Assembly: GCA_947589175.1 (NCBI GenBank)
Contig: CANPZR010000002.1
Span: 1 to 42,412, forward strand
Direction of reading: 5' to 3'
Origin: an uncultured Lachnospiraceae bacterium
Lineage (GTDB): Bacteria > Bacillota > Clostridia > Lachnospirales > Lachnospiraceae
DNA: 42,412 nt
This document shows positions 37,112 through 42,250 of the stretch, piece after piece. The notes under the pieces are model-generated. The model did not search any database and was not told the origin of the DNA. It saw only the letters and a program-made list of their open reading frames with translations. Position 1 is the stretch's first letter, and every line of letters starts with the position of its first letter. Both the position numbers and the translations under genes were made by a program.

Positions 37112-37228
37112 ACGTGACAGCCTCCTTTTCCTTATCTTGATTATATTACGTATTCTTACGTATTGCAAGACTTTTTACATAATTTACACAATTCTACATT
37201 CATTCATGATAAATGACTACCAAATTCA

Positions 37229-37528: not shown

Positions 37529-37700
37529 TATGTAGTCTAAAACATCAACAAATATTTAATTGTTATCAAAGTAAATTTCCTGCAGCCTTCACAAAATATC
37601 TTTTCTTTCTTGGTCATTCACACCTCCCGCTTTCTTGTGTTGTGAATTCACATTGCTCTTAAATTTTTGCCGACTCCATGTTATGCTCCATATTATTTAT

Positions 37701-37872
37701 TTTTCTTGGTTATCTTGCACTTCCATTCTACATCCTTACCAGTACCATAAAACGGTCTTGTTCTTCGAACTTATGTTTCCCTTATGGTCGAAAATATAAG
37801 TGCGACCATGCTGGACACACCCTATAAAAACTATGCCAGTTCATTTTTTTACTTTATGCCGTATTTTTCCTG
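37701..37872. repeat. Island repeat copy 1
   Basis: Shares cttggttatcttgcac...cagtaccataaaacggtcttgttcttcgaacttatgtttcccttatgg with copy 3, and gtcttgttcttcgaactta...cctataaaaactatg-cagttcatttttt..ctttatgccgtatttttcc with copy 2. Confidence 0.85.
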
Positions 37873-38109: not shown

Positions 38110-38250
38110 TTGACTTCCCTCCGGATAATTCTATCATATTAAACTATGCTTATCAGTACTTTATTAAGCTATTCTTTAATTTCTTTTGCATCTTGTCAGC
38201 ACAATATTGCACAAATGCGGATAAGTTCATGTTTTTCAACTTTGCTGTGT

Positions 38251-38853
38251 CTATCTAACAATCCGAAATATTCTCGAGTCATATGTATGAGAATCAACTA
38301 CTGATACTCTACAATTTATCCATTGAAGTTTTTTGTTCATACTATCCTGTAACGCTTTCATGATCATCTTTTTGGATCGCGTCTTCCCAGCAAAATCGCC
38401 TTCAAGAAACAAAATAACATATTTCTTTTTCGAATCATCAGGAAAGCTGTCACTTAACATAAATTGTATACATTCCCTTAAATCGTCCACACACTCTTTT
38501 GTATCTTCAAAGGATTTTGCCCCAACCAAAGCAGCTAATGTCATTGCTGCTTTCTGTGCTACTTCAATATCCAGACTATCTCTGCCCTCCACATCAACAG
38601 AAGTATGTGTCGTATCGTGTTTTTGGTTATTCGGGAAAATTCTCCACCGACAATTTCCTTCATTCCCAGTACAGTTCTTTACTTCTATAAAAGCAATCTT
38701 ATCTTTATTAACAGAGATAAAATCAACACCCTTTGCTCCCGGTAATTTATTGAAATAATCCCTATAAAATTTTGTATCATCAAATTTTATCACCGTATCA
38801 TTCTCTGAAAACTGAAACTTTAATCCACTTTCTTTCCTGATATTATTCTCCAT
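38251..38853 (-). CDS. Putative PD-(D/E)XK-like nuclease, partner of the upstream AAA ATPase
   Basis: MENNIRKESGLKFQFSENDTVIKFDDTKFYRDYFNKLPGAKGVDFISVNKDKIAFIEVKNCTG: D-x10-EVK spacing after an acidic/aromatic helix suggests a PD-(D/E)XK core. ATG overlaps the ATPase stop by 11 nt. Confidence 0.6.
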   Translation of the reverse strand: MENNIRKESGLKFQFSENDTVIKFDDTKFYRDYFNKLPGAKGVDFISVNKDKIAFIEVKNCTGNEGNCRWRIFPNNQKHDTTHTSVDVEGRDSLDIEVAQKAAMTLAALVGAKSFEDTKECVDDLRECIQFMLSDSFPDDSKKKYVILFLEGDFAGKTRSKKMIMKALQDSMNKKLQWINCRVSVVDSHTYDSRIFRIVR

Positions 38854-39907
38854 AAATAATCCTCTGTTCTCTATCATACATCGCATCAAATTCCTCCATA
38901 ATTGCATTATGTTCCAAATCAGATGCTGAATTTTTTATTTCGTAACTAATATTTCGTGTTTTTTCATCCCTAAACAATGAAATAAATCTGATATCCAATT
39001 TTTGGGGATTTAATTCCGGATAAGCTTCAATCATATTAAACTCCTGTTGAATAAAATAATCATGTGTGGAAACAAAAATCTGTACTCCCATCTGTGCTAA
39101 AGCAACCATTGCCTGTACAATTGGGTGAATCATTTTAGGATTCATATTCGTTTCTGGCTCATCCCAGAATAAAATTGTATTTTTATTTAAACTTCCTGAA
39201 AGAATCATATAAACAATCATGGATAGCTTTCTATATCCATCTGAAAGCAATCCCATCTCAAATTCACCTTCACCTTTGATTTTGAAATAAAATTTCTTGT
39301 TTTTCTGAACAATTTGTCCTTTCATTATGTCTTCCAAATTATTTAATACCTGATTCTGTTCAGTAGTGTTAGGACCTTTTGAAATTGGTCGATCCAAAAG
39401 TTTTGCAAGGTCATAATACATCTCTTCGAAATCTATATGATATTCATCATATAACGACACAAAATGTTCTACCGTAGAAATCATTTCCTTTGTAGGAATA
39501 TAAATAACATCATATTTCTCTGTTTTCTTACTTTGTACTATGGAAACATCTGCATGATTTTCCTGTCTATTTCCAAATCCAACTGCAATCTTTTGATTCT
39601 TATCCAAATCGAGAGAAAATTCTGTTCTGTTACTTCCTTGTTTACGGCTTACTAATCTGCCAATTTTCATTTCATCAGGACGGAACACACCTTGGATTTT
39701 TTTTACAAAAATCTGCTCTTCCATCTCTTTTGTCAAATTATCTCTATTTCCATTACTAAGCGGTTTTATCAAAGAATACATCACTTTCAAAATCGTTGTT
39801 TTTCCGGTGCTATTTTCACCACTAATAACATTAATGTTATCTGACCAATTCATTTCTGCATTTTCAAACGCCATAAAATTATTTAATGTTAACTTTTTAA
39901 TTTTCAT
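38843..39907 (-). CDS. AAA ATPase of OLD/AAA_15/AAA_21 type (SMC-like ABC ATPase)
   Basis: MKIKKLTLNNFMAFENAEMNWSDNINVISGENSTGKTTILKVMYSL (Walker A); LLSDGYRKLSMIVYMILSGSLNKNTILFWDEPETNMNPKM (signature and Walker B); VQIFVSTHDYFI. Confidence 0.9.
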   Translation of the reverse strand: MKIKKLTLNNFMAFENAEMNWSDNINVISGENSTGKTTILKVMYSLIKPLSNGNRDNLTKEMEEQIFVKKIQGVFRPDEMKIGRLVSRKQGSNRTEFSLDLDKNQKIAVGFGNRQENHADVSIVQSKKTEKYDVIYIPTKEMISTVEHFVSLYDEYHIDFEEMYYDLAKLLDRPISKGPNTTEQNQVLNNLEDIMKGQIVQKNKKFYFKIKGEGEFEMGLLSDGYRKLSMIVYMILSGSLNKNTILFWDEPETNMNPKMIHPIVQAMVALAQMGVQIFVSTHDYFIQQEFNMIEAYPELNPQKLDIRFISLFRDEKTRNISYEIKNSASDLEHNAIMEEFDAMYDREQRIIYGE

Positions 39908-40261
39908 ATCTATTTATCACCTCATTCTTCACTCTATATTTTTGCCTATAAATCTATTTTTAATGCCCTCTTCCCTTCCTGAGACAGAATAAATGTTTTA
40001 ATAATCCCTGAGGAATTCGCAATTTTAACAATTATCCAGATAAATCCCCTAATTATGTGCTATTCTATCATATAAAACCCTGTTTTTCAATAATAATCGT
40101 AGAAATGATAATTTCCTTCTCTCTTTTGCAATTAAAAGGGGATCCATCAGCCAGCGATATCTGACGAATTCTCTGTTTCTTTTTATAAGCACATCTAGCA
40201 CTTTTACCATATATGTCTACAAGCCGTTCTCTATATTCATCATTATTCTCTACGCAAGCCG

Positions 40262-40382
40262 AACGGTCTTGTTCTTCGAACTTATATTTTCCTTGCAGTC
40301 GAAAATATAAGTGCGCCCATGCTGGGCGCACCCTATAAAAACTATGTCAGTTCATTTTTTGGCTTTATGCCGTATTTTTCCC
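40262..40382. repeat. Island repeat copy 2
   Basis: cggtcttgttcttcgaacttatattttccttgcagtcgaaaatataagtgcgcccatgctgggcgcaccctataaaaactatgtcagttcattttttggctttatgccgtatttttcc; homologous to copies 1 and 3. Confidence 0.85.
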
Positions 40383-40578: not shown

Positions 40579-40788
40579 CTATTTCCAGATATTCTGCTTC
40601 CAATATAACCATTGTGCTTCGGTCTCCAATGTGACTGCTCCGTCTCCTTTCAATCCTTTTTTGACGTACTCTTTGACCAGATACATATGTTTGTCATTCC
40701 CATGTGTTCCATATTTTCTCCCTTCTCCGTCCGGCTTCGCATGCCCGCTGCCATTTCGGTCAGTGTCGTTCGGCTTCTCTCTTGACAT
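40579..40788 (-). CDS. Small hydrophilic protein, unknown; has a decayed paralogue at about 41905-42118
   Basis: 69 aa MSREKPNDTDRNGSGHAKPDGEGRKYGTHGNDKHMYLVKEYVKKGLKGDGAVTLETEAQWLYWKQNIWK. Confidence 0.55.
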   Translation of the reverse strand: MSREKPNDTDRNGSGHAKPDGEGRKYGTHGNDKHMYLVKEYVKKGLKGDGAVTLETEAQWLYWKQNIWK

Positions 40789-40894
40789 CCTATCATATTA
40801 AACCATGCTTGTCAGCGCTTTATTAAACTATTCTTTTAATTTTTTGACAAGTTTGCAGACCAGCCAGTAGCCGCAAACGAAAGCTGATCAAATT

Positions 40895-41724: not shown

Positions 41725-41847
41725 TTTTTCTTGGTTATCTTGCACCCCTATTCTACATCTTTACCAGTACCATAAAACGGTCTTGTTCTTCGAACTTATG
41801 TTTCCCTTATGGTTGAAAATATAAGTGCACCCATACTGAGCGCACGC
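41725..41847. repeat. Island repeat copy 3
   Basis: tttcttggttatcttgcacccctattctacatctttaccagtaccataaaacggtcttgttcttcgaacttatgtttcccttatggttgaaaatataagtgcacccatactgagcgcac; close match to copy 1. Confidence 0.85.
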
Positions 41848-41873
41848 TTTCCCATTCCTTTTGAGCCAGATCT

Positions 41874-42130
41874 TCATTCGTCACGCTTCCACCTCCTATA
41901 ACCTATTTCCAGATATTCCGCTTCCGATATAACCTCATCGTGCCTCGGCCTCCAATGTAACTGCTCCGTCTCCTTTCAATCCTTTTTCAGCGTACTCTTT
42001 GACCAGATACATATGTTTGTCACTCCCATGTGTTCCACCTTTTTCTCCCTTCTCCGTCCGGCTTCGCTTGTCCGCTGCCATTTCGGTCAGTGTCGTTTGG
42101 CTTCCATCTTGACAATTCTATCACATTAAA
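41874..42130 (-). pseudogene. Decayed duplicate of the 69-aa gene and the start of the 72-aa gene (40551-40804)
   Basis: Long near-identity with 40551-40804. Relative to copy 1 there is an extra base near GGGAGAAAAAGGTGGAAC (frameshift) and a premature stop (GCACGATGA). Confidence 0.8.
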
Positions 42131-42250
42131 CTATTCTTTTTAGCCACAACAATAACCTGCATCCATTGCTGTATTCCATGCTGTCTCTTTATTATCGTAT
42201 GCATCTTTAATAAAAACAAAATTTTTTCTCCATATTACTTACTTTCAAAC

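Follow-up and report, generated by a model that had tools for sequence, protein, structure and literature searches.

The two overlapping genes analysed here, found on the minus strand of a 42,412-nucleotide stretch of DNA from an uncultured Lachnospiraceae bacterium (the window), are by their profile matches a new copy of the catalogued defence candidate HEC-02 and not an undescribed system. Taken together with the conservation of both proteins and with their genomic context, these matches make it probable that the pair is an anti-phage module of two genes, of the HEC-02 type and its DUF6661 branch, in which an ATPase would act as sensor or gatekeeper and a nuclease of the PD-(D/E)XK superfamily as the effector of abortive infection.

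The pair matches the catalogued candidate HEC-02

Both gene products matched PADLOC-DB v2.0.0 profiles of HEC-02 over nearly their full length. The HEC-02A profile PDLC04213 covered residues 1-350 of the ATPase (profile 1-332/337, 390 bits), while the HEC-02B profile PDLC04228 covered residues 5-198 of the small protein (profile 3-195/199, 300 bits), which was also recognised as Pfam DUF6661 (PF20366, 334 bits). HEC-02 has the same two-gene organisation as the window pair and its relatives sit inside other defence operons. Within HEC-02B, the window protein represents the DUF6661-type branch (PDLC04228), and the other branches (PDLC04217-04227 and 04145) are very divergent. The initial annotation, correct on the anatomy and the logic of the pair, had presented it as undescribed. 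This novelty claim fails because PADLOC-DB already names both proteins HEC-02, which places the pair in a named system; DUF6661 is moreover an existing Pfam entry and similar operons have been published. We also observed that the A and B labels of HEC-02 are swapped between profiles, since 'A' denotes the nuclease in PDLC04145 and 'B' the ATPase in PDLC04146, with the reverse use in PDLC04213-04229, which could confuse automatic annotation.

According to the papers that cite it, the HEC (Hma-embedded candidate) series comes from the preprint of Payne et al. 2024. Citing papers report that HEC-04 and HEC-06 are active against phage, and one of them describes HEC-05 and HEC-06 as independent GmrSD-like proteins. 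Our literature search, whose scope lay outside the Payne et al. preprint itself, retrieved no paper on DUF6661 or testing HEC-02 against phage, and the HEC-02 family is apparently uncharacterised.

Organisation of the locus

The ATPase gene (354 aa) extends over positions 38843..39907 and the nuclease gene (200 aa) over 38251..38853, both on the minus strand, with an 11-nt overlap at 38843..38853, just as the initial annotation had placed them. This overlap would allow translational coupling. SD-like sites precede both ATG codons at a suitable spacing, GAGGTG in the case of the ATPase and AGAGGA, located within the ATPase gene, in that of the nuclease. The nuclease frame is also open from an upstream start that would yield a 218-aa version; the 200-aa start was preferred because it has its own ribosome-binding site.

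As had been described, the pair sits in an AT-rich segment filled with repeats, the GC content being 31-34% around the pair versus ~50% across most of the window. Between positions 37200 and 42412, the minus strand carries an array of repeated units around small ORFs, composed of a promoter-like repeat (38128-38158, 40062-40092, 40787-40817 and 42115-42145) and a partly terminator-like repeat (37700-37823, 40211-40334 and 41725-41848), and the ATPase-nuclease pair is placed between two of these units. The repeat copy D3 (40062..40092, minus strand), which precedes the ATPase start by ~155 nt, contains the promoter-like site TTGAAA-17-TAGAAT with an extended -10 TG. Identified by pattern match only, in a region whose count of promoter-like sites is not above that of shuffles, D3 is likely the promoter of the pair.

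The ATPase carries conserved OLD-type catalytic motifs

The 354-aa protein matched Pfam AAA_21/AAA_15 only, and the Pfam search found no Toprim domain fused to it, in agreement with the first reading of the sequence. The motifs quoted in that reading were all found (GENSTGKTT, LSDGYRKL, ILFWDEPE and GVDFISVNKDKIAFIEVKN). In the ATPase, they correspond to a Walker A motif GENSTGKT (K36), an OLD-type signature LSDGYRK and a Walker B motif ILFWDE containing the catalytic glutamate E250, and they are accompanied by an H-loop STHD (H282). Residues K36, D249, E250 and H282 were invariant among ten homologues, in which the catalytic residues as a whole are invariant or nearly so. A search of PDB sequences with the ATPase profile retrieved AriA, PtuA and Rad50. 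Structure prediction of the ATPase reached a pLDDT of 43 and provided no usable model.

The small protein is PD-(D/E)XK-like

The initial annotation had proposed a PD-(D/E)XK core on the basis of a D-x10-EVK motif in the small protein. The spacing was misread, as the residues are arranged as D44-x12-E57-x-K59. We rejected the D-E-K motif on its own as evidence for a nuclease, since the loose pattern D-x(10-14)-E-x-K arises in 38% of composition shuffles; the form flanked by hydrophobic, strand-like segments arises in 0.2% of them. Because the loose motif is so frequent in shuffles, conservation was given more weight. None of the residues E8, D44, E57, K59 and K101 varied among 12 DUF6661 proteins, whose identity goes as low as 34%. 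Adding the partners of distant ATPases, which share 17-26% identity with the window protein, left E57 and K101 without variation and E8 and K59 almost without, in cross-family HEC-02B alignments whose low identity calls for careful reading.

Links to known families came from Pfam scans of the homologues. The protein of one DUF6661 locus (L006) scored just over the curated cut-off of NERD (22.6 vs 22.1 bits, E 1.6e-4), and SfsA, NOV_C and EcoO109I matched other homologues below threshold in the same region as NERD. All four are established restriction-fold families. The link of the window protein itself to a known member family was sub-threshold. In the AlphaFold2 model of the small protein (8 sequences, pLDDT 75.5), the strands 45-48 and 52-60 adjoin or carry D44, E57 and K59, and they are followed by a helix (94-112) with K101 and by a strand (143-151). 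Foldseek searches of this model against the PDB and viral structures gave no match with E < 0.001 (best E 0.037); the weak matches included several restriction-fold enzymes, such as SfsA (4dav), Hjc (2wiw), HincII (3e44) and HamA (8vx9), and unrelated folds too. Similarly, PDB sequence searches with the nuclease, both as a single sequence and as a profile, returned nothing credible. The proposed core is thus upheld by the conserved D/E/K residues and by the NERD link, but the structural comparison added no significant match. We conclude that its sequence gives good support for calling the small protein PD-(D/E)XK-like, the fold being supported rather than proven.

Both genes are paired and diverge together

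A survey of neighbourhoods established that the homologues are paired. The ATPase gene was directly upstream of the nuclease gene in 13 out of 13 DUF6661 loci examined (the window, L001-L007, L009, L010, L013, L014 and L050), with a split ATPase frame in L005 (7102-7870) and L006 (6914-8001). Among 18 distant ATPase loci, mostly at ~27-35% identity (L041 at 53%), 15 had an adjoining small protein with a D/E...E-x-K/R motif (L029-L032, L035, L037-L040, L042, L043 and L051-L054). Those partners that were scanned matched other HEC-02 nuclease profiles, while the assignment of the partners in L051-L054 relied on position and motif only, L052 and L053 being near copies of each other. No small partner was visible beside the ATPase relatives of L036 and L041, and that of L028 was truncated (2502-2675). 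Therefore, beyond the DUF6661 loci the pairing has exceptions. The split ATPases of L005 and L006 and the truncated nuclease of L028 are either decayed copies or assembly errors.

The distances of the ATPase and of the nuclease were strongly correlated over ten loci (r = 0.98). Both genes are under purifying selection, with dN/dS values of 0.03-0.13 for the pairs with a usable synonymous distance (L002, L003 and L004). Apart from the sister genome, the closest loci were homologous to the window only from ~75 bp upstream of the pair to the stop codon; since this homology ends just outside the pair, the two genes move as a unit. DUF6661 is rare: in the window's family 5 out of 397 genomes carry it and in its class 2 out of 391, each count including the window's own genome. 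Scans of viral contigs found no relatives of the pair, and the only 'phage' records with relatives were two unverified faecal contigs, one of them carrying integrase-like genes.

The pair lies in a defence context

The genomic context of the pair is one of defence, as initially suggested from the proximity of Wadjet. Downstream of the pair, the window contains a complete Wadjet type II operon (JetA2-JetB2-JetC2-JetD2, 35908-27882, minus strand), which belongs to the context and not to the pair itself. The same arrangement was present in a sister genome (L001) at 96% DNA identity, where a type II-A CRISPR-Cas module (cas1, cas2, csn2 and array; L001:1-4068) lies on the other side of the pair. 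The window's own genome (G000) carries the same type II-A CRISPR module on a separate contig (C214). If the gene order of L001 is shared, no more than a few hundred bases would separate the end of the window from the CRISPR array. As a separate observation, a dispersed repeat of ~130 bp was located between cas1 and cas2 (L001:1263-1400), with copies at 70-90% in more than 20 places of the window's genome; this element is possibly a MITE or REP-like element.

Relatives of the pair were also embedded in BREX loci (L003, L035, L038 and L043). In plasmid-borne BREX operons, a relative was inserted between brxC and pglX in Methylomonas, after pglX and before pglZ in Polaromonas, and between brxC and pglX in Sphingobium, where brxA, brxB, brxC and pglX were confirmed by PADLOC. 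In L003, remnants of brxA/pglX flank the pair on one side and the candidate system PDC-M33 on the other; the PDC-M33 genes (A split into two ORFs, plus B) are directly downstream of the pair in this BREX-remnant island (L003:3698-6312).

Comparison with other ATPase and nuclease systems

Several known systems resemble the pair in part. PARIS (AriA and AriB) also combines a split OLD-like ATPase with a nuclease, and the AriA profile scored 85 bits on the window ATPase, far below HEC-02A; the small protein had no match to AriB (Toprim/DUF4435) at E values up to 1. PD-T4-4 was rejected on similar grounds, as PD-T4-4_A reached 73 bits on an ATPase that is much closer to HEC-02A, and PD-T4-4_B did not match the small protein at E values up to 1. 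Septu (PtuA and PtuB) likewise joins an ATPase to a small nuclease (PtuA profile, 47 bits), but the small protein has no HNH and no PtuB match. The PADLOC results for AriB and PtuB agree with the earlier statement that the effector is neither HNH nor Toprim. As for OLD and the GajA protein of Gabija, the 354-aa protein consists of ATPase domains only, with no Toprim fusion. Hence, PARIS, Septu, Gabija and PD-T4-4 were excluded because the defining effector or fusion is missing.

The same overall logic, with a small PD-(D/E)XK nuclease placed after an OLD-like ABC ATPase, is found in WonAB of Vibrio cholerae WASA-1, a system which aborts phage infection and requires residues of both the ATPase and the nuclease active sites (PMC12137116). 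In this system, WonA affects the stability of the WonB nuclease, and the authors suggest that ABC-ATPase sensors with nuclease effectors make up a larger, uncharacterised family, naming PD-T4-4 as a related organisation (PMC12137116). The catalytic residues are K34, E300 and H333 in WonA (PMC12137116) versus K36, E250 and H282 in the window ATPase, so that the stretch from Walker A to Walker B is ~50 residues longer in WonA by a crude comparison of the spacing of these positions. By residue spacing, membership of the window pair in WonAB is not supported. In addition, a survey of BREX loci described OLD-ABC ATPases paired with Toprim, HNH, PD-(D/E)XK or PIN nucleases and proposed that they are backup suicide effectors (PMC12839542).

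ATPase-gated abortive infection as the proposed mechanism

From these comparisons we infer that abortive infection by an ATPase-gated nuclease is the best mechanism for the pair. The sense-execute-abort logic was transferred to HEC-02 from WonAB, the nearest tested design, and from the BREX survey. The OLD-like ABC ATPase HEC-02A would be both sensor and gatekeeper, most likely in a complex with HEC-02B where an ATPase dimer restrains or stabilises the nuclease. An event induced by the phage would change the nucleotide state of the ATPase, and HEC-02B would then cut nucleic acid, aborting the infection. By analogy with WonAB, gating of the nuclease by the ATPase is likely and the target may be an RNA needed for translation.

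Direct cleavage of DNA is a serious rival, which we consider possible although it is not the reading we favour. The pair would then resemble a compact Septu or Gabija and act in a restriction-like manner: once the ATPase has recognised invading DNA, by its ends or by replication structures, the nuclease would destroy this DNA directly and the cell would survive. The nuclease's weak matches, in sequence and in structure, are indeed to families that cut or bind DNA (NERD, SfsA, EcoO109I and Hjc), and the ATPase shares its superfamily with Rad50, PtuA and AriA. However, Pfam detected a DNA-binding domain in neither protein, and WonAB, the best-tested relative in kind, stops translation and neither degrades DNA nor blocks entry (PMC12137116). 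We regard as rather improbable a further reading, in which HEC-02 would guard a neighbouring primary system (BREX, CRISPR or Wadjet): inactivation of that system by phage counter-defence would trigger the module, much as PARIS responds to Ocr, and the NERD-like nuclease would be released against an undescribed target. The repeated insertion of HEC-02 inside BREX operons is compatible with this reading.

More doubtful still is a maintenance module of the toxin-antitoxin kind, with the ATPase as antitoxin of a toxic nuclease and defence secondary or absent. Two overlapping genes, horizontal mobility, relatives on plasmids and the toxin-antitoxin-type genes that neighbour L010 and L040 would all agree with it. 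Yet the ATPase has fully kept its catalytic residues, for which an antitoxin that simply neutralises would have no need, relatives are repeatedly embedded inside BREX operons, and in WonAB the ATPase is required for the toxicity of the nuclease and not for its neutralisation (PMC12137116). Finally, a chance neighbourhood of a generic ATPase and a small protein that is unrelated to it and bears the D-E-K motif by accident, conceivable in that the loose motif is common and AAA_21-type ATPases are abundant, was refuted by the neighbourhood survey, given the conserved pairing, the co-divergence, the purifying selection on both genes and the motif kept across diverged families.

Altogether, the survey documents recurrent embedding in BREX and reveals no new kind of system. 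It gives a catalogue entry the form of a concrete unit that can be tested, defines its DUF6661 branch and shows that one ATPase family has very divergent small nucleases as partners. It also supplies candidate catalytic residues for both proteins, K36 and E250 in the ATPase and E8, D44, E57, K59 and K101 in the nuclease. DUF6661, a Pfam family of unknown function, thereby gains a probable role.
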